In this document: piece after piece, positions 18,982 to 32,076 of the stretch
Position numbering within the stretch: position 1 is the first letter of the stretch
Layout: every line of letters starts with the position of its first letter
Source of the DNA: Desulfobacterales bacterium GWB2_56_26
GTDB lineage: Bacteria > Desulfobacterota > Desulfobulbia > Desulfobulbales > Desulfocapsaceae
Length of the DNA stretch: 32,559 bases
Assembly: GCA_001799365.1 (NCBI GenBank)
Contig: MGTI01000041.1
Span: 1-32,559 of the forward strand
Direction of reading: 5' to 3'
Notes under the pieces: model-generated
What the model was told of the DNA's origin: nothing
Database searches by the model: none
The model's input: only the letters and a program-made list of their open reading frames with translations
Translations under genes and position numbers: made by a program

Positions 18982-19594
18982 TTCGAGAAAGCGGATAGTG
19001 GTCTTCATGGGGATGATCGCTTCGGGCAAAAGCTATCTGGCCGGGGCCTGGGCGGGACGGCACGGCTGTCCGTATTTCAATACCGATGTGATCCGCAAGA
19101 CCCTTGCCGGAATCGATGCCACCGAATCCCGGCCGGAGGAGGCGGGGCAGGGGATCTATTCCGCCGAATACACCCGCAGGACCTATGATGCCATGCTGGT
19201 TTCGGCCGAAGAGAGACTTCGGGATCCCGCTGTTTCATGCGTGGTGCTGGACGGTTCGTACCAGTCCGAGGCGGAGCGTGACCGGGTGCGCAGAACTTTT
19301 GAGAAAACGGCCCGGGTGGTCTTCGTCATGTGCAGCTGCAAGGAGACGGTGACCAAAGCGCGGCTGGCCGAGAGAGCCGCCGACCCGGCCTCCGTTTCCG
19401 ACGGGCGCTGGGAGATATATCTCGCCCAGAAGGACGCTTTCGAATTTCCCGAGGAACTGCCGGTTGAGCAGTTTCGCCGGCTTGACACCGATGGTCCGCT
19501 CGACGTTTTGCTTGGGCAACTCGATGCCCTTCTCCAGCAGGATGCCGCAGGTTGTGGCGGGGATAAGACTGAGAGGAAAGGACTGAGGACTTAG
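18962..19594 (+). CDS. AAA/P-loop kinase-like protein (zeta-toxin/APS-kinase-like fold)
   Basis: A 210-residue P-loop protein. Walker A is GMIASGKS (about residues 16-23), followed by FNTDVIRK, typical of small-molecule kinases, and a hydrophobic strand with Asp (CVVLDGSYQ). It begins inside the end of the APH-like gene, +1 relative to that frame, and the two normally make one bifunctional protein. Translational coupling or ribosomal frameshifting are both possible. The last codons run into the repeat at 19577-19665, giving an odd C-terminus (KGLRT). Confidence 0.82.
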   Translation: MPKGKTDSRKRIVVFMGMIASGKSYLAGAWAGRHGCPYFNTDVIRKTLAGIDATESRPEEAGQGIYSAEYTRRTYDAMLVSAEERLRDPAVSCVVLDGSYQSEAERDRVRRTFEKTARVVFVMCSCKETVTKARLAERAADPASVSDGRWEIYLAQKDAFEFPEELPVEQFRRLDTDGPLDVLLGQLDALLQQDAAGCGGDKTERKGLRT

Positions 19595-19665
19595 GACTGA
19601 GGACTGAGAAATGCAAGGACTGTAGGGGCTAAAGATTTTTCGCCCCTACCCTCAGTCCTCAGTCC
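19577..19665. repeat. Nested palindromic repeat element, likely bidirectional terminator
   Basis: Outer arms of 15 bp (19594-19608 and 19651-19665, built from GGACTGA units) are perfect reverse complements. An inner 8-bp arm GTAGGGGC (19622-19629) pairs with GCCCCTAC (19642-19649). A further GGACTGAGGAC copy lies at 19580-19590 inside the end of the P-loop kinase gene. The element fills the gap between two convergent genes. Its core recurs at 30645-30668. Confidence 0.75.
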
Positions 19666-19685
19666 TTTTGCCTCAGTCCCTTTAC

Positions 19686-20963
19686 TTAATAATTGAGATC
19701 GAAGGTCAGGAAGACGTCGCTGTTGGATTTCTCCGTCAGCGTTATTTCTTCCGCCGCTCCGTAAGTCGCGGTCCGTTTATCGTGTTTGCCGATAATGGAG
19801 AACTGCAGGTTGTCGGTCAGGTTGATCCCTAGCTTGACCCCCATGTTCAACGAACTGAGCATGTTGTTCTCGGTCGCCGCCCCAAGGGTGTTATCCTGGT
19901 CTGAGTACTGCAGGAGCATCGACAACGACCAGCGGTTGTCGGGGGTCAGCAGGGTGTTGAGGCCGAGGGTCCTGGTGGGGGCATCGAAAAGGTCGGAAGT
20001 GCCGTTTTCCAGGGAGTAATCGAAATAGGTGATGGACGGGGTAATCAAGAGCCAGTCGCTGGGCTGGAAATTGCTGGCCAGTTTCACTCCCTGCCTCACC
20101 CCGGTTTCGGACGAGCCGTCATCCAGCCGATAGCTCATATTTCGGGTTGAGGAATCGAAACCCGGAATGGCAGTGGAACCGTCGAAGGTCTCGTGAATGG
20201 CAGTGAAATTCATGTTGAAGCCGTCGGCCAGGGCATGGTCGTAGCCCACCTCGTAGAGATTGAGATGCGACTGATCCGTGCCCAGATCATAGGAACCGTC
20301 GGTAACGGTGTTGAAATCGACCTGCAGCAGGGTGGATGATTCGGTTCGAAATTCATCGCGGGTGAAGCCGGTCAATGTGCCATTCTGATGGAGAGGTATT
20401 TCCACAGAGCTCTCAAATCGCACCTGGCTGGCCTCGCCGCCGGATTTCAGGGCCAAATGCCGTTTCGAGCCGACAAATCGCTTCTTCCAGTAACGGTCGT
20501 CAAGGCTTGACACCATCACGCCATTGCTGCTGCTGGCATGAATGAATTGGCCGTCGGACAGGTAGACGCCGACATGGTTGATCCTCTTTTTCTTGTAGCC
20601 AAAGAAGATCAGATCGCCGGGCTGCAGGTCGCGTGTGGCGATCTTCTGCAGGTCCGAGGATCGAAATTGGTTCACGGAGTTGTGCGGCAGATCAATGCCG
20701 AACAGCCGATCGTAGATCATTCGGGCAAAACCGGAACAGTCGAGGCCCCGGGTCGAGGTTCCACCCTTGCGGTAGGGGATACCGAGGAATTCTTTGGCTT
20801 CGCTTTCAAACTCATGCTCGGTCAGTCCATAGGAGGAGAGCGGAGAGTCTGAATTCTTTTTTCCCATGGCGAAGGCGACGGGGGAGGATACGGTGATGAG
20901 TGTGCTGCAAACGACGCAAATGATGCTTTTGGATAAGGAAAAGTGTCGAATTTGTCTTTGCAT
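19686..20963 (-). CDS. NlpC/P60 peptidase fused to an outer-membrane beta-barrel-like domain
   Basis: A 425-residue exported protein. A signal peptide (residues 1-32, ending SPVAFA) precedes an NlpC/P60 cysteine peptidase domain (about 45-175). The catalytic Cys is Cys76 (GLDCSGFARM), the His is His130 (INHVGVYL), and His142 (FIHASS) is a third polar residue. Such domains cut cell-wall peptide bonds. The remaining 240 or so residues are rich in alternating polar and hydrophobic strands and end in an aromatic residue (FLTFDLNY), the usual C-terminal sign of an outer-membrane barrel. I infer a barrel-anchored peptidoglycan hydrolase facing the periplasm. The ATG at 20963 has a poor ribosome-binding site but gives a complete signal peptide. 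Confidence 0.82.
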   Translation of the reverse strand: MQRQIRHFSLSKSIICVVCSTLITVSSPVAFAMGKKNSDSPLSSYGLTEHEFESEAKEFLGIPYRKGGTSTRGLDCSGFARMIYDRLFGIDLPHNSVNQFRSSDLQKIATRDLQPGDLIFFGYKKKRINHVGVYLSDGQFIHASSSNGVMVSSLDDRYWKKRFVGSKRHLALKSGGEASQVRFESSVEIPLHQNGTLTGFTRDEFRTESSTLLQVDFNTVTDGSYDLGTDQSHLNLYEVGYDHALADGFNMNFTAIHETFDGSTAIPGFDSSTRNMSYRLDDGSSETGVRQGVKLASNFQPSDWLLITPSITYFDYSLENGTSDLFDAPTRTLGLNTLLTPDNRWSLSMLLQYSDQDNTLGAATENNMLSSLNMGVKLGINLTDNLQFSIIGKHDKRTATYGAAEEITLTEKSNSDVFLTFDLNY

Positions 20964-21393: not shown

Positions 21394-21472
21394 TGAAAGT
21401 CAATTGGGACGTGCATTATCGGAGGAGATTTGGACGTTCATTTGCAACAACCTGTATAATGGGAGGAGTGCC

Positions 21473-22333
21473 ATGGATCGAGAGGTGAGAGAACTGTATG
21501 CCAGATACCGGGGGGATGAGATCAATCGCCGCCAGTTCCTGGAAAAGCTGGCAATCATCGCCGGGGGAGTGGCTGCCGCCTATGCCCTGTTGCCTCTGCT
21601 GGAAAGCGATGTAGCCCAGGCGACAATCGTGGCCGCAGACGATATCCGGCTGATGACCGAGCCGGTAACCTATAAAGGCGCTAAGGGAGAAATACGGGGG
21701 TATCTCGCCCGGCCGAATGACGCAGGCAAACTGCCGGGCGTGGTTGTGGTCCATGAGAACCGGGGCCTCAATACCCATATCGAGGATGTCACCAGGCGGC
21801 TCGCCCTGGCGGGCTTTCTGGCTTTTGCCCCGGATGCGCTGTCCCGGGAGGGCGGTTCGCCCGTCGACCCGGAGCAGGCTATCGCCATGATCAAAAACCT
21901 GGATATGGATGAGACCGTGAAAAATTTCGCCGCGGCCGCCGCCTACCTGAAAACCCATCCCCGGTCCACCGGCAAGGTTGGGGTGGTCGGCTTTTGCTGG
22001 GGCGGGGCGATGGCGAATCTGATGGCCGTTCACTCCCCCGATATCATTGCCGCCGTACCCTATTACGGTAAGGCGCCGCAGCCGGAAGACGTGGCCAAAA
22101 TCAAGGCTTCGCTGCTTCTCCATTACGCCGGCAACGATGAGCGCATCAATAAGGATATCCCGGCATTCAAAGAGGCGCTGACGAAAAACAAGATTGATTT
22201 CCAGATCCACATGTACGAGGGAGCAGAACATGCTTTCAATAACGATACCAACCGCGAACGGTATAACAAGGTGGCGGCGGAACTGGCCTGGACCCGGACC
22301 ATCGAGTTCCTGGACAAAAAGTTGAAGGGCTGA
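21473..22333 (+). CDS. Dienelactone hydrolase family protein with Tat-type signal
   Basis: A 286-residue alpha/beta hydrolase. The N-terminus has a twin-arginine motif (NRRQFLEKLAIIAGG) before a hydrophobic stretch, suggesting Tat export or membrane anchoring. The catalytic triad is visible: Cys175 in the nucleophile elbow GFCWGG, Asp222 in GNDERIN and His253 in GAEHAFNN. The Cys nucleophile is typical of dienelactone hydrolases, but many members have other or unknown substrates (compare E. coli YghX), and no aromatic degradation gene is nearby. The ATG at 21473 follows a strong GGGAGGAG site; in-frame codons to 21404 lack one. It converges on the radical SAM gene. Confidence 0.92.
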   Translation: MDREVRELYARYRGDEINRRQFLEKLAIIAGGVAAAYALLPLLESDVAQATIVAADDIRLMTEPVTYKGAKGEIRGYLARPNDAGKLPGVVVVHENRGLNTHIEDVTRRLALAGFLAFAPDALSREGGSPVDPEQAIAMIKNLDMDETVKNFAAAAAYLKTHPRSTGKVGVVGFCWGGAMANLMAVHSPDIIAAVPYYGKAPQPEDVAKIKASLLLHYAGNDERINKDIPAFKEALTKNKIDFQIHMYEGAEHAFNNDTNRERYNKVAAELAWTRTIEFLDKKLKG

Positions 22334-22355: not shown

Positions 22356-23576
22356 CTATTTTCGCCCGCAGCATTTCTTGTATTTCCGGCCGCTGCCGCA
22401 CGGGCAGGGATCGTTCCTGCCGGTGTGGCCCGGTCGGCCGTCGGTTTGGCTTTGCTGTCGCCATTGTCTGGCTACCGCCTGCACGAAGGGCGTGCAGTGG
22501 TTGAAAAAGAGCTTGTAGCCGGCACAGAGGTAGTTCAGTTTTTCAGTTTCGTTCCCGCCTGTCACGAACCGGTTTTTCGGACATTCGCCGTTACACATCG
22601 CGAGCACCTCGCAGGACCGGCAGCTTCGCGGCAGTGAGGTGCGTTTAGCCGCACCGAACCTTCGCAGCCGTTCCGAGCCGAGAATCTCGGCGAGGGGCTC
22701 GTCCGCGATATTGCCCACCCACCATCCCGGTTCGACAAAATGGTCGCAGGCGTAGACGTCGCCGCCCGCTTCGACCACCGGAATATCGCCGCAGGTCGGC
22801 CGGAAAAGACAGAGGGAATGGTCCTGGCCAAAGGCGGCCCTGGCCGCTTCTTCGAAGATCTGCATCTTGACGGTGCCGATATCGCTCGCCCGCCACTCGT
22901 CGAATATGGTGCAGAGGAAGGCGCCGAATTCCTCCGGCGGTACGGTCCGGTCGCTGACCCCATTCTCCAGCGGTTCGACCAGGGGCAGAAAACTGAGGTG
23001 GGTGGCCCCGATCGACTTGAAAAAACGGTACACCTGCAGGGGAAACATGACGTTATGACCGTTCACCACACAGAGGATGTCGGTGGGGATCCGGTGGTCG
23101 GCCAGGACCCGGTAGCCGCGCATCGCCGCCGCATGCGACCCCTGGCCCAGCCGGTCCGTCCGATAGACGTCGTGAATTGCCTCCGGCCCGTCGAGGCTCA
23201 GGCCCACGGTAAAGCGGTGTTCGGCCAGGAATCGGCCCCAGTCGTCGGTGAGCAGCGTTCCGTTGGTCTGGATGCCGTTGGTTATGTGCTTGCCTGGTGG
23301 GCAATGCTTCTGCTGCAGCTCGATAATCCGGCGGAAACGGTCGATGCCGAGCAGGGTCGGCTCCCCGCCGTGCCAGGAGAAGCGCACATTGTTGCCTGGA
23401 TAGGCTTCGATATGGCCCCGGATGTATTTCTCCAGGAGATCTTCCGTCATCTGCGGCGCAGGTTCGGTAGGAAAGATGCTCTCTTTCCTGAGATAGTAGC
23501 AATAGCTGCAGTTCAGGTTGCAGCGATAGCTGACCGGTTTGGCGAAGATCTGGAAATCGGGTGGGGTTTTAGTCAT
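22356..23576 (-). CDS. Anaerobic sulfatase-maturase-like radical SAM/SPASM protein with SEC-C tail
   Basis: A 406-residue radical SAM enzyme. The cluster motif CNLNCSYCYY (Cys19, Cys23, Cys26) lies close to the start. WHGGEPTLLG and the segment QTNGTLL follow, both typical of anaerobic sulfatase-maturating enzymes, which oxidise Cys or Ser to formylglycine. A SPASM domain with further cysteines (CRSCEVLAMCNGECPKN) binds auxiliary clusters. The last 20 or so residues form a SEC-C zinc motif (NDPCPCGSGRKYKKCCG), an addition not needed for maturase activity. No sulfatase gene is in the window, so the substrate is open. The ATG at 23576 gives the family start; the frame is open to 23738 but would run over the hydrogenase promoter region. 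Confidence 0.88.
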   Translation of the reverse strand: MTKTPPDFQIFAKPVSYRCNLNCSYCYYLRKESIFPTEPAPQMTEDLLEKYIRGHIEAYPGNNVRFSWHGGEPTLLGIDRFRRIIELQQKHCPPGKHITNGIQTNGTLLTDDWGRFLAEHRFTVGLSLDGPEAIHDVYRTDRLGQGSHAAAMRGYRVLADHRIPTDILCVVNGHNVMFPLQVYRFFKSIGATHLSFLPLVEPLENGVSDRTVPPEEFGAFLCTIFDEWRASDIGTVKMQIFEEAARAAFGQDHSLCLFRPTCGDIPVVEAGGDVYACDHFVEPGWWVGNIADEPLAEILGSERLRRFGAAKRTSLPRSCRSCEVLAMCNGECPKNRFVTGGNETEKLNYLCAGYKLFFNHCTPFVQAVARQWRQQSQTDGRPGHTGRNDPCPCGSGRKYKKCCGRK

Positions 23577-23731
23577 CGCTTTCTTTCGTGCCCAAATTAT
23601 GGAATCAGGCGGCATTCCCGACATAGATATACAAACGGGGACCGTGCCCCTCTCATCCTCTTCTGTATGCCGCCTCTTAGGTTCTTTATCAAGGAATTTC
23701 CCATTGAACAGATGAACAGATGACACCGATA

Positions 23732-23760
23732 TTGACATCCCCCGGCATATCCTCGATACT
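23732..23760 (+). promoter_or_regulatory. Sigma-70 promoter of the hydrogenase signalling operon
   Basis: A perfect -35 box TTGACA (23732-23737), an exact 17-base spacer and -10 box GATACT (23755-23760) predict a start near 23767. That leaves a leader of about 55 bases to the GTG at 23822. Confidence 0.6.
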
Positions 23761-23798
23761 GGTATAAAAAATAGCTTTAATGGATTTTATACCTGTAT
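23756..23798. promoter_or_regulatory. Dyad overlapping the -10 box and start of the hydrogenase operon
   Basis: Bases 23756-23769 (ATACTGGTATAAAA) and 23785-23798 (TTTTATACCTGTAT) are inverted repeats with one mismatch in 14; the inner 9 bp are perfect, and the spacer is 15 bases. Because it spans the -10 box and the predicted start, it could be a repressor operator, or a hairpin at the 5' end of the mRNA. Confidence 0.55.
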
Positions 23799-23821: not shown

Positions 23822-24757
23822 GTGAAAACTGCGTATTGGTTGCAGGGCGGTGGCTGTGGCGGGGATACCTTCTCCTTTCTGGGCAGTGAATATCCGGATG
23901 TGATCGAACTGTTTCAAGGTCTCGACATCCGGCTGCTCTGGCACGCCTCGCTCTCTCCTCTCTCCCCCAGGGAACACGAACAGCTGCTGGAGGATCTCCT
24001 CGCCGGCAGGCGGCCCCTCGACATCCTCCTGGTGGAGGGCTCGGTCATTTGCGGTCCGGCCGGGACCGGGATGTTTCACACCAAGGACGGCCACCCCAAG
24101 AAGGAACTGATCTACAGCCTGGCATCGCTCGCTCAGGTGGTGATCGCCGTCGGTACCTGCGCGTCGTTCGGCGGTTTCGGCGCCGACGATATCATCGAGG
24201 CGCGCGGCTTGCAGTTCACCAAAAAAAGTCGCGGCGGCTTTCTCGGCGAGGATTTTACCGCCAGGTCCGGCCAGCCGGTGATCAATCTGGCCGGCTGCCC
24301 CTGCCATCACGATGTCATCGCCGGAGCCCTCATTGCCGCGGTGAGCGGCGTGACCCTACCCCTCGACAAATTTCAGCGGCCCCTGGAATGGTACGGAAGC
24401 ACCGTGCATCAGGGTTGCACCCGCAACGAGTACCACGAGTACCGGGTCGAGGAATCGGATTTCGGTGAGATGGGCTGTCTCTTTTTCCATATGGGCTGCG
24501 CCGGCCCGTTGGTGCCGGGGCCCTGCAACAAGCTGCTGTGGAATCAGCAGTCGTCGAAACCGCGGGTCGGGGTGCCGTGCTTCGGCTGCACCGATCCCGA
24601 ATTTCCGCGGGCCACGCCGTTTTTCCAGACGCCCAACATCGAGGGGATTCCGCTCTCCCTGCCGATGGGGGTCAACCGGGCCCATTACATGGTATATAAA
24701 GGTATGGCGGCCGCCGCGGCGCCCGAACACCTGAAGAATCGGGTCTCGAAGGTTTGA
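23822..24757 (+). CDS. [NiFe]-hydrogenase small subunit, cytosolic, group 2-like
   Basis: A 311-residue electron-transfer subunit for three iron-sulfur clusters. There is no Tat signal; the protein begins KTAYWLQGGGCGGDTFSFL, like cyanobacterial HupS or sensory HupU/HoxB. Candidate proximal ligands are Cys12, the Cys of VGTCASFGG and a Cys of AGCPCHHD. The usual second Cys of the first motif is replaced by Asp15. The distal cluster is given by VHQGCTRNEY with GEMGC and HMGC, the medial by GPCNK and PCFGC. GTG at 23822 is chosen because GGAG lies eight bases upstream and it gives the family start; the in-frame ATG at 23780 falls within the promoter dyad. It heads an operon with the large subunit, a protease, a kinase and a cyclase, which points to H2 sensing over energy metabolism. 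Confidence 0.93.
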   Translation: MKTAYWLQGGGCGGDTFSFLGSEYPDVIELFQGLDIRLLWHASLSPLSPREHEQLLEDLLAGRRPLDILLVEGSVICGPAGTGMFHTKDGHPKKELIYSLASLAQVVIAVGTCASFGGFGADDIIEARGLQFTKKSRGGFLGEDFTARSGQPVINLAGCPCHHDVIAGALIAAVSGVTLPLDKFQRPLEWYGSTVHQGCTRNEYHEYRVEESDFGEMGCLFFHMGCAGPLVPGPCNKLLWNQQSSKPRVGVPCFGCTDPEFPRATPFFQTPNIEGIPLSLPMGVNRAHYMVYKGMAAAAAPEHLKNRVSKV

Positions 24758-24780
24758 AATTTCTCGGGGTTAAAAGCTTC

Positions 24781-24873
24781 GTGGGGTCAAATCTTTATCT
24801 TTGACATTTTCTCCCACCTAGCGATTTAAAAGGAAAACAGAAAAAAATGTCAAAGATAAAGATTTGACCCCAC
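24781..24873. repeat. REP/MITE-like element with 30-bp perfect inverted arms inside the hydrogenase operon
   Basis: Bases 24781-24810 are the exact reverse complement of 24844-24873; the arm begins GTGGGGTCAAATCTTTATC. A 33-base loop separates them. The element fills most of the 138-base gap between the small- and large-subunit genes, leaving 22 bases before the large-subunit ATG. I recall GGGGTCAAATC-type palindromes as dispersed elements in anaerobic proteobacteria, sometimes linked to REP-associated tyrosine transposases; no transposase is present here. In mRNA it would form a very stable hairpin. Confidence 0.85.
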
Positions 24874-24895
24874 CCAATATAGGTAGGTAACCGGC

Positions 24896-26446
24896 ATGGT
24901 GAAGACGACGAAGGGCATGAACATCCCCCTGAACAGGGCTGAAGGGGATCTGGAAATACGGGTGGAGATCGAGGACGGGGTGGTGACCGAGGCATGGAGC
25001 GCCGGCACCATGTTCCGCGGCTTCGAGGCGATGATGCAGGGCCGCGGGGCCCGGGACGGCCTGGTGATGACGCCCCGGATCTGCGGGATCTGCAGCCTCA
25101 CTCACTTGACCGCGGCCGCCCTGGCCCTCGATGCGATCGCCGGCGTCACGCCGCCCGACAACGCCCACCGGCTGCGCAACATTGCGCTCATGATCGAGAC
25201 CATCCAGAGCGACATCCGCCAGGCGGTTCTCATGTTCATGGTCGATTTTGCGAACAAAAAAGCCTACGGCAGCCATCCTTTAAGCGAGGAGGCGCAGGCC
25301 CGCTACGGCGCGCTCTCCGGCAGGACCGCCATCGAGACTATCCGGGAGAGTAAACGTCTGCTGCAGGTAGTGGCGATCATCGGCGGCCAGTGGCCGCATA
25401 CCTCCTTTATGGTGCCGGGCGGGGTGACGTCTTCTCCCGATATCTCGAAGATCCTCCAGTGCCGGATGATCATCGACGGCTTCCGCGCCTGGTATGAACG
25501 GACCATCCTCGGCTGCTCCATCGCCAGGTGGCAGGAAATCGTAAGCGTCGACGACCTCTACGCCTGGCTGCTCGAAAAGGAGGCCCACCGCGAAAGCGAG
25601 GTGGGTTTTTTCCTGCGTTTTGCCAAACATGCGGGGCTCGATACCTTCGGCCGGGGTCCCAATCGGTTTCTCTCCTACGGCAATTATCCGCTGCCGCAGG
25701 CGACGGCCGTGTCGGGGCAGGGGGCGAGACTCACCCGCGCCGGGTACGCCGTCGGCACGGAAGTCTTTCCCTTTATGCCCGGCAAAATCGCCGAGGATAT
25801 CTCCCATTCCTGGTACGAGCAGAACGGCGAGCCGCTGCATCCGTTTTCGGGCCGGACCAAGCCATACGCCTCCGGCCAGAGCGGCCGGCTCTATTCCTGG
25901 ATCAAGGCGCCCCGCTATGACGGAGAGGTGGTCGAAACCGGGCCGCTTGCGGAAATGGTGATAGACGGCAATCCGCTCTTCTGCGAGATGATCGAGCGGG
26001 AAGGCCCGAGCGTTATGGTAAGGGAGTTGGCCCGGCTGGTCCGGCCCGCGGGGCTTTTAACCCCAATGACGACCTGGGTGGATGAGCTTCTCGCGGCGAG
26101 TAATGACAGCTTCTACCACCCGGTTAAGGCGATTCCCGACGGCGAGGGCGCAGGGCTCATCCAGGCCGCCCGCGGCGCCCTGGGACATTGGGTGAAGGTC
26201 GAGGATGAAAAGATTGCCCACTACCAGATCATCACTCCGTCCGCCTGGAACGGTTCGCCCCGCGACGGGCAGGGCCGGCGCGGCGCCTGGGAGGAGGCCT
26301 TGATCGGCACGCCGATCCGCGATATCGACAACCCGGTGGAGGCGGGCCACGTGGTCCGGTCGTTCGATCCCTGTCTGGTCTGCGCTGTCCATTGTCTGGA
26401 CAAGGGCGGCGGCAAGGGTGGGCTCAGGATTGGTCCAGGCCGGTGA
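24896..26446 (+). CDS. [NiFe]-hydrogenase large subunit, group 2-like (putatively H2-sensing)
   Basis: A 516-residue catalytic subunit. Both nickel-binding motifs are complete: N-terminal RICGICSLTHL with Cys63 and Cys66, and C-terminal DPCLVCAVH with Cys493 and Cys496. After His499 there are 17 more residues (CLDKGGGKGGLRIGPGR), a C-terminal extension of the kind removed by a specific protease during nickel insertion. As I recall, classic H2 sensors (HoxC/HupV) lack this extension, so this protein matures like an ordinary hydrogenase. The spacing of the N-terminal half (LNRAEGDLEI onwards) fits group 2 enzymes. The stop overlaps the protease start by four bases (GTGA). No hyp maturation genes are in the window, so they must be elsewhere. 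Confidence 0.94.
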   Translation: MVKTTKGMNIPLNRAEGDLEIRVEIEDGVVTEAWSAGTMFRGFEAMMQGRGARDGLVMTPRICGICSLTHLTAAALALDAIAGVTPPDNAHRLRNIALMIETIQSDIRQAVLMFMVDFANKKAYGSHPLSEEAQARYGALSGRTAIETIRESKRLLQVVAIIGGQWPHTSFMVPGGVTSSPDISKILQCRMIIDGFRAWYERTILGCSIARWQEIVSVDDLYAWLLEKEAHRESEVGFFLRFAKHAGLDTFGRGPNRFLSYGNYPLPQATAVSGQGARLTRAGYAVGTEVFPFMPGKIAEDISHSWYEQNGEPLHPFSGRTKPYASGQSGRLYSWIKAPRYDGEVVETGPLAEMVIDGNPLFCEMIEREGPSVMVRELARLVRPAGLLTPMTTWVDELLAASNDSFYHPVKAIPDGEGAGLIQAARGALGHWVKVEDEKIAHYQIITPSAWNGSPRDGQGRRGAWEEALIGTPIRDIDNPVEAGHVVRSFDPCLVCAVHCLDKGGGKGGLRIGPGR

Positions 26447-26886
26447 CCGGGTGCATCATCTGCATCGGCAACCGCTTTGTCGCGGCAGACGCGGCAGGCC
26501 CGGCGGTCTTTGACCGGTTGCGGGAGATGGTGCTGCCTCAGGGGGTCGATTTGGTCGAGGGCGGGCTTGCCGGCCTGAATCTCTTGCCTTTTTTGGAAAA
26601 TGGCGGCAGGGTGGTCTTTGTTGATGCAGTGTGCGGTTTCGCCGGTCCGGGCGAAATGGTGCTGCTTACCGAGCGGGAAATCACAGGGACTACAAGTCAA
26701 GTCCATTACGATCACGGGGCAGGTCTGCCTTACGTGCTGGCGGTGCTGCCGCAGGTCGCAGACGGCGAACCGCCGGAGGAAATATTTCTGGTCGGACTGG
26801 AGGGTGAATGCAGCATGGAGACGATCGATCAGGCCGCCAGGCTGAGTATCGCCGTGGCAGCCAATGGCCTCATGGGTAGCGGGTGA
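26443..26886 (+). CDS. Hydrogenase maturation protease (HyaD/HybD family, M52)
   Basis: A 147-residue peptidase expected to cut the large-subunit tail after His499. The three nickel-recognition positions known from E. coli HybD are present: an acidic residue after the start motif (IGNRFVAADAAG, Asp where HybD has Glu16), the Asp in VVFVDAVCG and the His in HYDHGAGLPYVL. The GTG at 26443 starts within the large-subunit stop codon and places the IGN motif at the usual distance from the N-terminus; an in-frame ATG at 26392 would overlap the large subunit by a further 51 bases. The stop shares one base with the kinase ATG (TGATG). Tight coupling to the large subunit suggests a dedicated partner. 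Confidence 0.92.
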   Translation: MTGCIICIGNRFVAADAAGPAVFDRLREMVLPQGVDLVEGGLAGLNLLPFLENGGRVVFVDAVCGFAGPGEMVLLTEREITGTTSQVHYDHGAGLPYVLAVLPQVADGEPPEEIFLVGLEGECSMETIDQAARLSIAVAANGLMGSG

Positions 26887-29741
26887 TGGAAAAGACCAGG
26901 GCAGAGATGCAGCGGGAAATCGACATGCTGCGCGAGGAAATCCGGGTTGCCCGGGAAGCGGCGGAAATCACCGCCGACTTCGTGGTCAAGCAGTTCGAGC
27001 AGACCGAACAGATGCTGCACCGTTTCCAGAGCGCCGATGCGGAGCGGCAGGCGGTCCTCGACGCCGCCACCCAGCTCTCCATCATCGCCACCTACCTCGA
27101 TGGCACCATTCAGCTCTTCAGCACCGGCGCCGCGACCCTGCTCGGCTATAAGCCTGCCGAGATGATCAACAATAAGAACATCCTCTCCCTCCATCTGCCG
27201 GAAGAACTGGACCATTACGGCCGGCAGGTGAGCGGCATCGAAGGCACCAGCCTCCAGGGCATGGAGGTTTTCGACCAGTTCGTCAAACAGAAGCACAGCC
27301 GCGCCCTGGAATGGAAGTATGTGTGCAAGGACGGCACTCATCTGCCGGTCAGCCTCTCCGTCACCAGCCTGTACAATCCGGTGGGCCGGGTGGTGGGGTA
27401 TCTTTTTGCGGCGATGGATATGACCCGCCACAAGCAGATGGAACGCGAGCTGATCCAGGCGAGGGATCAGGCGGAATCGGCCAACGCCTCACGTGGCGAT
27501 TTCCTTGCCCGGATGAGCCATGAGATTCGTACGCCGATGAACGGCATCGTCGGCATGGCATCGCTCCTGCGCAAAACCGCCCTCGATCCCAAGCAGCACA
27601 ATTACGTGGAGAAGCTGCTCGGCTCCGCCAATACGCTCTTGCGCCTGATCAACGATATACTCGATTTTTCCAAGATCGACGCCGGCAAGCTGGTGCTGGA
27701 GGAAGTTCCCTTCAACCTGGAAGACATTCTCGGCAATATCGCCAATGTCGTCGGCATGCAGGCCGAGAAGAAGGGCTTGGAGTTTTTGTTCCGGATCAGC
27801 TCCGAGGTGCCGTACAACCTGATCGGCGACCCGCTGCGCCTTGGCCAGGTGCTCATGAACCTGGCCGGCAATGCGGTGAAATTCACCGAACGGGGCGAAA
27901 TCGTCATCTCCGTGGGGTTAGAGGCGCGCGGCGCAGACGAGACCACCTTACGCTTTTCGGTCCGCGACAGCGGCATCGGCCTCCGGCCGGAACAGATCAA
28001 GCTGCTGTTTTCAGCTTTCAACCAGGCCGACGATTCCATTACCCGCAAATACGGCGGCACGGGGTTGGGGCTTGCGATCTGCAAGCAGCTCACCGAACTC
28101 ATGGGCGGCCGGATCTGGATCGAAAGCGTACCGGGCCGGGGCTCGGAATTCATCTTCACCGCCAAGATGCGGCTCTCGGCCGGCGTCCGGCAGCGGCGGG
28201 AGCTGTCGCCGGAATATCTGCAGGGCTTGAGGGCGCTTGTGGTCGACGATAACGAGACCGCCCGTGAGGTCCTCTCCTCCATGTTGAGCTCGCTCAAGAT
28301 CAAGGTTGACACCGCCAATGACGGCCTGTCCGCCCTGGACAGCCTTGAGGCGGCGACGCAGCAGGGCGATCCCTACGACGTCGTGCTGCTCGACTGGATC
28401 ATGCCCGGCATTGACGGCATCGAAACCGCCCGGCGGATCAAGGCCAACGAGTCCTACGCCAAGGTGCCGGCGATGCTGATGGTGACCGCCAACGGTCGGG
28501 AAGAGGCCATTGTCGAGGCGGGGCGGGTGGGGCTCGACGGTTTTCTGCTGAAACCCGTCTACGCCTCGGTCATGTACAACACCTTGCTGGATATCCTCGG
28601 CATCGAGTCGGTCGCAGGGCCCGCCACCACCAAAGAGAATACCACCACGGTCGACCTTACCGCTCTGGCTGGCGCTCGTATCCTGCTGGTTGACGACAAC
28701 ACCATCAACCAAGAAGTGGCCATGGAATTTTTGCGGGACGCGGGCATGGTGGTCGACATCGCCACCAATGGCCGTGAATGTTTGAATGCACTGCACTGCA
28801 GCCAGTATGATCTGGTCCTGATGGACATCCAGATGCCGGTGATGGACGGCCTGGAGGCAACCCGGAGAATCCGGCAGAGCGATCGGTTCAAGGATCTGCC
28901 CGTGATCGCCATGACCGCCCATGCCATGACGGGCGACCGGGAAAAAAGTCTTGCCGCGGGAATGAACGACCATATCACTAAACCGATCGACCCGGATGTC
29001 CTCTATCGGGCACTGAAACAGTGGATTGTGGGGCAGCCGTCGGCAGGGACCGTCCGGGCGTCTTCCCTGGAACCGGGCGGTGGTACGACGGACGAACTGC
29101 TCCTGCCGCACTTGCCGCCCCTGCCCGGCATCGATCAGGCGGAGGCCATGAAGATCCTCAACAACAAGGCCGGTCTCTTCGTCAAGATGCTCTACGACTT
29201 CCGCAATAATTACAGCATGCTGCCGACCGTTCTGCGGGAGTTGTCCGCGGCGGGCGACTGGGACGAGATCCGGAAAAAGGCCCATACGGTGAAAGGGGTG
29301 GCCGGCTATATCGGCTCGGTTCCCTTGCAGCAGGCCGCGGCGATACTGGAAGAGGCGGTGCACAGCGACCTGCGGGAAGAAGCGGTTCGCCACTTGGCCG
29401 CCTTTATCGACACCCTGGATGAAATCCTCTCTTCCCTTGCGGCGCTTCCCGAGACCGAAGCCGATGCACCACGGCAGACACCCGACCTGGCAGGAGACCT
29501 GGCCGGCATGCCGGAGGCGGAAGAACCCCTGCAGCTCCTCCTCGGCCAGCTGAGCCGGGGAGAGGTGGCGGCGGAGGAGCAGGCCGGTATTGTCGGCAAA
29601 ATCCTGGCCGGTTCGAAACTTGCCGGACCGATGCAGGAAATAATCTCGCTCATCGAAGACATAGAATACGAAAGCGCGGCGGAAAAGGCGCAAGGACTGT
29701 TGACCTTGCTCAGAGAGAGACGGGGGAATTGCCATGCGTAA
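26886..29741 (+). CDS. Soluble hybrid histidine kinase PAS-HisKA-HATPase-REC-REC-HPt, hydrogenase-linked
   Basis: A 951-residue cytosolic phosphorelay kinase with no membrane segment. The N-terminal 55 or so residues are charged and probably coiled-coil, followed by a PAS domain (about 58-185). HisKA carries His212 (MSHEIRTPMNG), and the ATPase domain has NLAGNAVKF, DSGIGL and GGTGLGLA. Two receivers follow, with Asp503 (LLDWIMPGIDG) and Asp647 (LMDIQMPVMDG). An HPt domain (about 755-855) has His800 (KKAHTVKGVAG). All phosphorelay residues are present, so it can run His-Asp-His-Asp to the next gene's receiver. In known H2-sensing systems the kinase (HoxJ/HupT) contacts the hydrogenase through a PAS-containing N-terminus; by analogy this PAS could receive the signal. 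ATG 26886 overlaps the protease stop by one base; GTG 26883 is possible. Confidence 0.94.
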   Translation: MEKTRAEMQREIDMLREEIRVAREAAEITADFVVKQFEQTEQMLHRFQSADAERQAVLDAATQLSIIATYLDGTIQLFSTGAATLLGYKPAEMINNKNILSLHLPEELDHYGRQVSGIEGTSLQGMEVFDQFVKQKHSRALEWKYVCKDGTHLPVSLSVTSLYNPVGRVVGYLFAAMDMTRHKQMERELIQARDQAESANASRGDFLARMSHEIRTPMNGIVGMASLLRKTALDPKQHNYVEKLLGSANTLLRLINDILDFSKIDAGKLVLEEVPFNLEDILGNIANVVGMQAEKKGLEFLFRISSEVPYNLIGDPLRLGQVLMNLAGNAVKFTERGEIVISVGLEARGADETTLRFSVRDSGIGLRPEQIKLLFSAFNQADDSITRKYGGTGLGLAICKQLTELMGGRIWIESVPGRGSEFIFTAKMRLSAGVRQRRELSPEYLQGLRALVVDDNETAREVLSSMLSSLKIKVDTANDGLSALDSLEAATQQGDPYDVVLLDWIMPGIDGIETARRIKANESYAKVPAMLMVTANGREEAIVEAGRVGLDGFLLKPVYASVMYNTLLDILGIESVAGPATTKENTTTVDLTALAGARILLVDDNTINQEVAMEFLRDAGMVVDIATNGRECLNALHCSQYDLVLMDIQMPVMDGLEATRRIRQSDRFKDLPVIAMTAHAMTGDREKSLAAGMNDHITKPIDPDVLYRALKQWIVGQPSAGTVRASSLEPGGGTTDELLLPHLPPLPGIDQAEAMKILNNKAGLFVKMLYDFRNNYSMLPTVLRELSAAGDWDEIRKKAHTVKGVAGYIGSVPLQQAAAILEEAVHSDLREEAVRHLAAFIDTLDEILSSLAALPETEADAPRQTPDLAGDLAGMPEAEEPLQLLLGQLSRGEVAAEEQAGIVGKILAGSKLAGPMQEIISLIEDIEYESAAEKAQGLLTLLRERRGNCHA

Positions 29742-30648
29742 GGAAAAAGCCCGAATCCTCATCGTCGACGACGAGAAAATGAACCTGAAGGTGCTGGCCG
29801 ACCTGTTGAAGGAGGAATATTCGCCTGTGCTGGCCAGAAGCGGCGAGCAGGCCCTGCAACAGGCCTTCGGCGAGGCGCCGCCCGATCTTATCCTTCTCGA
29901 CGTGATCATGCCGGAGATGGGAGGCTACGAGGTCATCAAGGCTCTCAAGAACAGCGACAAGACCAACCACATTCCGGTGATTTTCGTCACCGCCCTCAAC
30001 TCCATCCAGGACGAGGAGCGCGGTCTTTTGCTGGGGGCGGTGGATTATATAACCAAGCCCTTTTCCCCGCCCATCGTCAAGATGCGAGTCCGTAACCACC
30101 TGCGCATCGTCCATCAGTACAAGCTGCTCGATCAGCTGGCCCATCTGGACGGTCTGACCGAGATTCCCAACCGGCGGCGCTTCGAAGAGGTGTTCCACAA
30201 GGAGTGGGCGCGCGCGGCCAGGAACGGCACGCCTTTTTCCCTGGCCATGGTCGATGTCGATTTTTTCAAGCAGTTCAACGACCACTATGGCCATGCCATG
30301 GGCGATATCGCCCTGCAGCGGATCGCCAAGGCCCTGGACTGCGTACTCCGGCGGCCGGGCGATCTGGTCGCCCGGTACGGGGGCGAGGAATTCGTCATGC
30401 TGCTGCCGGAGACAGACGCCTTCGCCGCCTACGAGGTAGCCCAGCGGTGTCTGCAGCAGGTGGTGGGCCTTGCCATCCCTCATCAATATTCCAGGGCCGG
30501 CGAGACGGTGACGATCAGCATCGGCCTGGTGACGAAAGGGATAGACGCCATAACCGCCCCGCAGATTTTTATCGCCACCGCCGATAAGAACCTCTATCTC
30601 GCCAAGGAAAACGGCCGCAACCGGATTGTCGAGAGCGTCATCGGGTAG
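29734..30648 (+). CDS. Response regulator diguanylate cyclase (REC-GGDEF)
   Basis: A 304-residue PleD/WspR-like output protein. The receiver (about residues 5-125) has the DDEK acidic pair, phospho-Asp56 (LILLDVIMPEMGG) and Lys in ITKPF. The GGDEF domain (about 140-300) has the active-site GGEEF at 216-220 and, five residues before it, RPGD, the inhibitory I-site that binds c-di-GMP. Both catalytic and feedback sites are therefore intact. It should make c-di-GMP from two GTP when phosphorylated. Its ATG overlaps the kinase stop by eight bases, so it is very likely the kinase's phosphorelay target and the output of the hydrogenase operon. Confidence 0.95.
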   Translation: MRKEKARILIVDDEKMNLKVLADLLKEEYSPVLARSGEQALQQAFGEAPPDLILLDVIMPEMGGYEVIKALKNSDKTNHIPVIFVTALNSIQDEERGLLLGAVDYITKPFSPPIVKMRVRNHLRIVHQYKLLDQLAHLDGLTEIPNRRRFEEVFHKEWARAARNGTPFSLAMVDVDFFKQFNDHYGHAMGDIALQRIAKALDCVLRRPGDLVARYGGEEFVMLLPETDAFAAYEVAQRCLQQVVGLAIPHQYSRAGETVTISIGLVTKGIDAITAPQIFIATADKNLYLAKENGRNRIVESVIG

Positions 30649-30837: not shown

Positions 30838-32076
30838 ATGTCCCTGTCATCGCCACCCCATCACGAAGAGTTGGATCGTCTTTTCACCCAAGCCTGCGAG
30901 GATTACCGCAACGGTCTGCTGGAGTCGGCAGGCGAGGCGTACCGAAAACTCTTGGAGTATTGCCCCGACGTCCCGATCCTGCATTACAATCTGGGGCTCG
31001 TCCGTTATCAGCAGGGCGAGTTCGAGAAGGCCTGCGAATCCTTTGCCAGGGCGGCGGAGCTCGCACCCCACGATGTCGATATTCTCTTCAATCTCGCCCT
31101 CAGCCAAAAAAAATGCGGCAATAGCGTGACGGCGACTGTCACCTATCTGGAACTGCTGCAGAGCGACCCCCACAATGTCGACGCCCTGTACAATCTGGCC
31201 GGCTGTTACAAGGATGAACATCTGCATCGGGAGGCCAAAGAAATCTACCGCGAGGTGCTGCGGCTGGCCCCCGACCATCCGTCGGCGAACAATAACCTCG
31301 CCTATCTCCATCACCTGGACGGCGAGTTTGAACCGGCTCTCGCTTGTTACCGGAAGGTCCTGGCGCAGAACCCCCAGCACCTGGCGGCGGCTCATATGGT
31401 CGCCGCCCTGACCGGAGCGGAAGTCGCCGGTCCGCCCGACGCCTATGTCCGGGAAGTTTTCGATCAATATTCCGATCGCTTTGAAGAGAGCCTCGTTCAT
31501 GGCCTTAAGTATCGGGTGCCGGACCTCCTCAGGGATTTTCACGACCGGACGCTTGGGAAGGTTGCGAAGATTGGGGAGGTCGGACACTATGCCCTTGGCC
31601 TCGATCTCGGCTGCGGAACCGGCTTGGGCGGTGCGGCCTTTACCGAACTGGTTGCGGTGTTCGATGGGCTGGACCTCTCGGCGAAGATGCTCGCCATCGC
31701 CGAAGGCAAGAACATCTACCGGCACCTCTACCATGGCAGCATTGCCGAGATACTTACGGCTGTCGACAGCACTTTCGATTTTATTCTTGCGTCCGACGTC
31801 TTCATCTATGCCGGCGAGTTGGAGACAACCTTCCGCCTGCTGAGAGAGCGCGCCAGTGCAGACGCCGTCTTCTGTTTTTCCACGGAGTTTGCGGCAGGAG
31901 AAGGCTTCCAACTGCAGCAGAACGGCCGGTTTGCCCATTCCCCCGAATACATCCGTCAGACGGCGCAGGCGACCGGCTGGCAGGTCGAGGCCGCGGAAAC
32001 AGCCCAAATCAGGAAAGAGCAGGGCGAGTGGGTGGAGGGTGCGCTCTGGATATTTCGGCCTGTGGAATCCTTCTGA
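30838..32076 (+). CDS. TPR-repeat SAM-dependent methyltransferase
   Basis: A 412-residue protein. The first 185 or so residues are about five tetratricopeptide repeats (for example ILHYNLGLVRYQQGEFEKAC and ALYNLAGCYKDEHLHREAKE), a protein-binding scaffold. The C-terminal half is a class I methyltransferase: motif I GLDLGCGTGLGG, then the acidic strand FDGLDLSAKML and FDFILASDVFIY. TPR-methyltransferase fusions of this type are known in many proteobacteria, mostly without a defined substrate. No signal peptide is visible. It starts about 190 bases after the hydrogenase operon and past its terminator, so it is probably a separate unit. The start ATG lacks a strong ribosome-binding site. Confidence 0.9.
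   Translation: MSLSSPPHHEELDRLFTQACEDYRNGLLESAGEAYRKLLEYCPDVPILHYNLGLVRYQQGEFEKACESFARAAELAPHDVDILFNLALSQKKCGNSVTATVTYLELLQSDPHNVDALYNLAGCYKDEHLHREAKEIYREVLRLAPDHPSANNNLAYLHHLDGEFEPALACYRKVLAQNPQHLAAAHMVAALTGAEVAGPPDAYVREVFDQYSDRFEESLVHGLKYRVPDLLRDFHDRTLGKVAKIGEVGHYALGLDLGCGTGLGGAAFTELVAVFDGLDLSAKMLAIAEGKNIYRHLYHGSIAEILTAVDSTFDFILASDVFIYAGELETTFRLLRERASADAVFCFSTEFAAGEGFQLQQNGRFAHSPEYIRQTAQATGWQVEAAETAQIRKEQGEWVEGALWIFRPVESF

Follow-up and report, generated by a model that had tools for sequence, protein, structure and literature searches.

A five-gene block on contig MGTI01000041.1 of Desulfobacterales bacterium GWB2_56_26 is predicted to encode a cytoplasmic H2-sensing complex, in which a [NiFe]-hydrogenase of the HydDB group 2c type would signal through a 42-residue module at the N-terminus of a hybrid kinase, a phosphorelay, and cyclic di-GMP (c-di-GMP). 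We put the probability of this reading at about 0.7. The window, meaning the whole stretch of DNA analyzed, is this complete contig of 32559 bases (C41; L, G, and C numbers are our handles for loci, genomes, and contigs), one of 263 in a draft genome of 4.5 Mb. Genes for the hydrogenase small subunit (hydS), large subunit (hydL), and maturation protease (hydP), for the kinase, and for a response regulator diguanylate cyclase form a single plus-strand block at 23822–30648, in which the last four overlap in turn by 4, 1, and 8 nt, the 4-nt overlap being that of hydL and hydP. An earlier annotation made from the letters alone, here called the original prediction, had described this order and these overlaps, and both are borne out by coordinates and Pfam domains.

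Group 2c is a known kind of hydrogenase, already proposed by HydDB, and what is new here is the N-terminal module of the kinase. Table 1 of HydDB (2016) lists the group as 'Diguanylate cyclase-linked (putative)' with its role given as undetermined, and HydDB remarks that it 'May sense H2 and regulate processes through cyclic di-GMP production' (PMC5037454). The sensor interpretation of the original prediction is supported, with the amendment that the class had already been named and proposed there. A likely 2c enzyme is said to have Methylobacter tundripaludum as its top match, and 2c hydrogenases are described as possibly co-transcribed with cyclases or phosphodiesterases (PMC4853749). Literature matches on 2c or on links between H2 and c-di-GMP turned up the HydDB table, a Thiomargarita paper, and one Methylobacter mention; none of the matches listed described experiments on such a pathway.

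In a careful tree of 61 large-subunit rows, the window falls within a 53-row clade (support 100/99) that includes M. tundripaludum and excludes the 2a-type and HoxC-type (2b) rows, and a quick tree of 92 rows agrees with this placement, again keeping the window separate from 2a-type and 2b rows. The 2b rows make their own clade in both (five rows in the quick tree, two in the careful tree). Ten rows were omitted from the quick tree to limit its size, namely nine 2a-type rows and the near-duplicate L052; the careful tree contains, by our own choice, just two 2b rows and four that are 2a-type or unplaced. As placed by this clade, anchored on M. tundripaludum, the window hydrogenase matches HydDB group 2c. 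Placement in group 2a was rejected, as both trees put the window outside the 2a-type clade. Placement in group 2b was rejected as well, the window lying outside the HoxC/HupV clade and retaining a 17-residue C-terminal extension and a histidine that HoxC lacks. The phylogeny of the large subunit, named in the original prediction as a check that could overturn it, leaves the sensor reading standing, with a 2c-type clade outside any energy-conserving group sampled.

The subunits were also compared by motif. The NiFe-site motifs of the large subunit (RICGIC and SFDPCLVCAVH) are intact, and the second differs at one position from SFDxCLVCTVH, the L2 consensus quoted for 2c (PMC4853749), whose CTVH end is found in 16/31 of L028–L058 and which many 2a-type rows fit too. 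A linked c-di-GMP gene, as expected of 2c, is present as the REC-GGDEF gene at 29734–30648. The second proximal-cluster position of the small subunit is Asp (CGGD or CSGD) in 20/20 aligned 2c-type small subunits, a selection made by us, and reads CGGD in the window; elsewhere this site is CGGC (Cys) in four 2b rows and CSGN (Asn) in the four 2a-type rows aligned. The window also has His where HoxC has Gln (CGICSLTH versus CGICSVSQ); Gln is found in clade members L016 and L063. The small subunit begins MKTAYWLQGGGCGGDT and has no twin-arginine leader, in contrast to HoxK in the alignment, which agrees with the absence of a Tat signal noted in the original prediction. Within the 2c clade, L031–L034 and L053 resemble HoxC in that their large subunit has no C-terminal extension and no protease was detected in their loci.

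The kinase module is closely associated with this type of hydrogenase. A search of 395 genomes of the window's phylum with the module profile (A2) gave 12 matches with E ≤5.3e-19 in 11 genomes, the next best having E 0.008, and these 11 are exactly the genomes with a hydL of at least 48% identity in the same set. In 11 of these 12 cases the match stands after hydL or hydL-hydP; in the remaining one (G352:C24) it comes after fragments of an additional hydS/hydL copy that is broken or incomplete. No module accompanies the hydL relatives at 35–46% identity in this set (G004, G180, G089, and the second copy of G118). Among 398 genomes of the phylum of L035, 7 matches in 6 genomes each adjoin one of the 7 best hydL (≥694 bits), and the other hydL matches (≤588 bits) in the 36 positive genomes are without a module. 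All 19 strong matches from these samples of two phyla, in some genomes of which at most 18 first-pass candidates were scored in both module scans, adjoin hydL or a broken hydL. Two extra copies occur in the 30 known carrier genomes, G421:C10 next to a full-length hydL and G424:C230 next to a hydL piece, and five further 2c- or 2b-like genomes gave no module. Because most profile rows came from the same loci, the position beside hydL is partly built in for the scans of the 395 genomes and of the 30 carriers, and the absence away from hydL is the stronger part of the test; copies independent of A2 are those of G485, G517, G529, G565, G421:C10, G352:C24, and G424:C230. Judged by these sequence matches, the pairing of module and hydrogenase is near-exclusive in the genomes searched.

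Throughout the module clade, the module recurs near the N-terminus of the protein encoded after hydL or hydL-hydP, L039 being among the carriers. The 46 module proteins comprise 36 kinases, 4 GGDEF cyclases, 5 proteins cut by a contig end before the output, and 1 unclassified short open reading frame (ORF; L148). What stands behind the module may be a PAS kinase, a GAF kinase (L047), a bare kinase (L036, L044), PAS-GGDEF (L055, G517), or GGDEF alone (L057, L058), and at least two separate exchanges between kinase and cyclase are needed on the 61-row tree. The module is also better conserved than the domains that follow it, with a mean identity of 56% versus 40% for the kinase core among kinase carriers (561 pairs) and 64% versus 44% for PAS among PAS carriers (253 pairs). 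AlphaFold models residues 4–62 of the segment as a single helix running into the PAS fold. The original prediction thus needs a second amendment: across the wider clade the constant partner of the hydrogenase is the N-terminal module, set before different outputs, and not the cyclase.

A segment of a different make-up (W-x-x-II-R-x-MD-x-x-Y-x-x-L...) is found beside 2b-type or sister hydrogenases, in L020, L021, and L083 and in the HoxJ-type kinases L108, L140, and L142. It precedes the PAS domain or kinase core, like the 2c module, and is perhaps a parallel docking element. The two are alike by eye, although hhalign gave a probability of 1.1% and E 0.047 for one comparison, and hmmsearch with all filters off gave no HoxJ match at E 20.

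Pairwise similarity of the module correlates with that of hydS (rho 0.41) and of the last 45 residues of hydS (rho 0.45), and not with hydL (rho 0.09, p 0.18) or the kinase core of the same chain (rho 0.04, p 0.31); the comparison used whole proteins from 34 kinase loci and 500 permutations. The kinase core gave rho 0.10 (p 0.07) against the hydS tail. Those last 45 residues are on average 71% identical across the 34 loci, versus 62% for the remainder of hydS, and show by eye a conserved pattern, RAHYxxYKGMAAAAAPxRLxxRxTxV. In HoxBC, the double-dimeric form gives way to a single heterodimer when a 50-residue extension of HoxB is replaced (PMC5665086). On these grounds we propose the small subunit as the docking site. 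That the module docks on the hydrogenase is probable on this evidence, and we lean, with slightly less assurance, toward the fuller view that it is a dedicated, portable hydrogenase-docking adaptor, placed before kinases with PAS, GAF, or neither and, independently at least twice, directly before cyclases, with its docking face on the small subunit near the C-terminal tail. The proteins that join module and cyclase directly would, as part of the same view, be H2-gated cyclases that dispense with a kinase.

The output side of the system is conserved over a narrower range. The subclade of the window has ten rows (support 100/100 in the 61-row tree), and a module kinase followed by REC-GGDEF is found in 9/9 loci with enough sequence (the window, L028, L029, L030, L031, L033, L034, L149 from G088, and L150 from G320), the tenth locus, L032, ending at a contig end; retention of the kinase and cyclase in relatives, a further check named in the original prediction, thus comes out in its favor. 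L030 (Desulfamplus magnetovallimortis) has a separate HPt protein between the kinase and REC-GGDEF. Five genes that flank the unit in the window were looked for in relatives; L028 has four of them and the 14-kb stretch of L149 has none, and the unit is therefore held together independently of its surroundings. Of the module loci, 27 extend 6 kb or more downstream, and 17 of these have a c-di-GMP gene on the same strand within 8 kb (GGDEF in 11, HD-GYP in 6 more), compared with no c-di-GMP gene downstream in any of 26 2a-type controls. These controls are the loci with 6 kb downstream among 39 2a-type loci, a set that includes L068, which lies outside 2a in the quick tree. GGDEF, HD-GYP, and EAL were counted here with local phmmer queries, not Pfam, and the neighborhoods of relatives come from a simple ORF picker whose unlabeled ORFs are not gene calls. 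In Methylobacter and relatives (L059, L060, L062–L066), a 2c-type hydrogenase is followed by a GGDEF protein; that of L063 is Rieske-like-PAS-PAS-GGDEF-EAL, and its Rieske domain might accept electrons directly from the hydrogenase.

In the mechanism we propose, HydSL would bind or turn over H2, and a redox or conformational change would pass via the small subunit to the partner protein's N-terminal helical module. The module helix, continuing into the PAS domain, would switch the kinase on or off, and phosphate would travel from His212 to Asp503/Asp647, then to His800, and finally to Asp56 of the REC-GGDEF cyclase. H2 could thereby set the level of c-di-GMP and hence attachment or motility. 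By alignment, these four kinase residues are intact, as are D56, GGEEF at 216–220, and the I-site RxxD (R207/D210) of the cyclase, which upholds what the original prediction reported of them. With a GGEEF site and a phosphorylatable REC domain, the last gene is a candidate active diguanylate cyclase, in a genome with 21 GGDEF and 11 PilZ matches. Module docking, the small subunit as its site, H2 as the ligand, the sign of the response, and the behavior controlled are points that we infer from comparison of sequences. That the hydrogenase is a sensor and not an uptake enzyme seems highly probable, and c-di-GMP as the output in this organism seems equally probable.

Could the hydrogenase instead be a working uptake enzyme of the 2a (Huc or cyanobacterial) kind that lies beside signaling genes by chance? 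Its best solved-structure match is the Hydrogenase-2 large subunit of 7uus/7utd, which we take to be Huc, of group 2a, and its C-terminal extension and maturation protease gene are those seen with catalytic enzymes. This explanation nevertheless appears very improbable, given that the window is placed with strong support outside the 2a-type clade, that its proximal site is CGGD and not CSGN, and that a signaling protein follows hydL throughout the clade, while c-di-GMP genes are missing from the 2a-type controls. The flanking genes scanned include no electron-transfer partner (two upstream genes, at 19686–20963 and 21404–22333, fell outside the scan), in keeping with the original prediction, which had seen no cytochrome or quinone partner. 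Alternatively, the complex could use the hydrogenase clusters or the PAS domain to sense O2 or redox state, with H2 as no more than the reductant that poises it. This has in its favor the presence of PAS, the altered proximal cluster site, and the suggestion that HoxBC sensing may involve oxidation-driven cluster changes (review PMC6978683). We think this improbable also, since several relatives without PAS still keep the hydrogenase and module and since the NiFe-site motifs of the window are intact.

Other observations weigh against the H2-sensing complex as we have drawn it. The module could be no more than a dimerization or signaling coiled coil that makes no contact with the hydrogenase, the pairing being a matter of operon inheritance. 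Such helices are common in kinases, the predicted single helix runs into PAS, and the kinase core itself tracks hydL (rho 0.49) and hydS (rho 0.24), the former as co-inheritance would lead one to expect. Against this explanation, which we consider rather unlikely, the module is retained when a cyclase replaces the kinase, is more conserved than the kinase core, gave no strong match in the 793 genomes except beside hydL, and correlates in similarity with hydS but not with the kinase core of its own chain, although that correlation is drawn from 40 columns and 34 kinase loci and the permutation leaves phylogeny in. The helix has a pLDDT below 50 over most of residues 42–60. No module match was found in the genomes of L063 and L066 (Methylobacter-type), the Sulfurimonas L086, where the module score is only 5 bits, or L061, though their hydrogenases are 2c-type; nor was the module detected in the genome of L083. 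The window keeps the extension and protease, unlike the sensor HoxC, hydS was not found in the 20-kb locus L034, where hydL, the module kinase, and REC-GGDEF are present, and a palindrome between hydS and hydL (see below) may lower expression of the downstream genes. Finally, a c-di-GMP gene is missing within 8 kb in 10/27 of the module loci, several loci having a lone REC or further kinases instead, so the main output might be transcriptional or other two-component control, with the cyclase a side branch specific to the subclade. This is unlikely, we think, in view of the REC-GGDEF that follows the kinase in every subclade locus with enough sequence and of the separate HPt between kinase and cyclase in L030.

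Coordinates of the features of the window, with the evidence for each
Feature	Position	Strand	Evidence
hydS, [NiFe]-hydrogenase small subunit, 311 aa	23822..24757	+	GTG start; Pfam PF01058, PF14720; alignment with HoxB, 2a-type, and relatives
REP/MITE-like palindrome, 30-nt perfect arms, between hydS and hydL	24781..24873	.	
hydL, [NiFe]-hydrogenase large subunit, 516 aa	24896..26446	+	Pfam PF00374; motif table; trees
hydP, hydrogenase maturation protease, GTG start	26443..26886	+	Pfam PF01750 (HycI), TIGR00072; scan began at upstream TTG
Soluble hybrid kinase, 951 aa, ATG start: N-terminal module-PAS-HisKA-HATPase_c-REC-REC-HPt	26886..29741	+	Pfam, alignment
N-terminal 42-aa module, kinase residues 9–50, QREIDMLREEIRVAREAAEITADFVVKQFEQTEQMLHRFQSA; proposed hydrogenase-docking helix	26910..27035	+	
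REC-GGDEF response regulator diguanylate cyclase, 304 aa, ATG start	29734..30648	+	Pfam, alignment

An in-frame ATG at 23780 is an alternative start for hydS; the GTG in the table is favored because several relatives (L028, L029, L031) begin there. The spacer that follows hydS measures 138 nt in the window versus 22 nt in L028, 15 nt in L149, and at most 96 nt in the other loci measured, and it holds an inverted repeat that is perfect over 30 nt (arms 24781–24810 and 24844–24873). Its predicted folding energy of -47.5 kcal/mol (z -11) implies strong structure in the transcript. A 24-nt piece of the arm has 19 copies in the genome at ≤2 mismatches, both window arms counted, and no match at ≤3 mismatches in any locus examined from other genomes. 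The palindrome is not part of the system.

An Rfam search of the window gave no match at gathering scores, and promoter and terminator scans returned consensus matches only, among them a sigma-70-like site at 23732–23760 upstream of hydS on which we do not rely. The block is flanked by an anaerobic sulfatase maturase-type radical SAM gene (22356–23738) and a TPR-methyltransferase gene (30838–32076), both present in L028 and missing from the L149 stretch. At 19567–19682, between two ORFs, lie imperfect inverted repeats with a unit of 'GGACTGAG' type. Elsewhere in the same genome, L006 (1501–1968; G000:C84:26085 on) encodes another hydrogenase large subunit, whose second Cys motif is interrupted by a TGA in frame and would read DPUMSCATH if the TGA is read as selenocysteine; this suggests a selenoprotein hydrogenase.

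The locus and its module turn the HydDB guess about group 2c into testable parts: a putative contact of 42 residues, versions of the sensor that occur naturally with a kinase or a cyclase, and a small-subunit region as the candidate site. If the reading is true, dissolved H2 would directly set attachment or motility in a group where many relatives carry sulfate-reducer names, and the system would show an enzyme made into an exchangeable sensor part.

Among known systems, the group 2c hydrogenases of HydDB share with the window an HydSL beside c-di-GMP enzymes and a tree clade in common with M. tundripaludum, but where the Methylobacter locus L063 has its Rieske-PAS-PAS-GGDEF-EAL protein, the window has a module-bearing phosphorelay kinase between hydrogenase and cyclase. 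The 2b sensors HoxBC/HupUV, acting with HoxJ/HupT and HoxA/HupR, resemble it in their leaderless HydSL and in a soluble PAS kinase with a conserved pre-PAS segment, although no relationship between that HoxJ-type segment and the module is detectable. They differ further in that HoxC has no C-terminal extension and does not require proteolysis (PMC10073562), has Gln for His near the active site (PMC5665086), and is paired with a CGGC proximal site where the window has CGGD, and in that 2b acts on a transcription regulator. Group 2a (Huc and cyanobacterial HupSL) provides the nearest solved structures and shares the maturation protease and C-terminal extension, but forms a separate clade, reads CSGN in the four rows aligned, and has no downstream c-di-GMP genes in 26 loci. 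The signaling proteins follow the domain make-up of BarA/TorS-type kinases and PleD/DgcR-type cyclases, which are their best NCBIfam matches, all under curated cut-offs; unlike the BarA/TorS type, the window kinase is soluble and has as its input a hydrogenase-linked N-terminal module.

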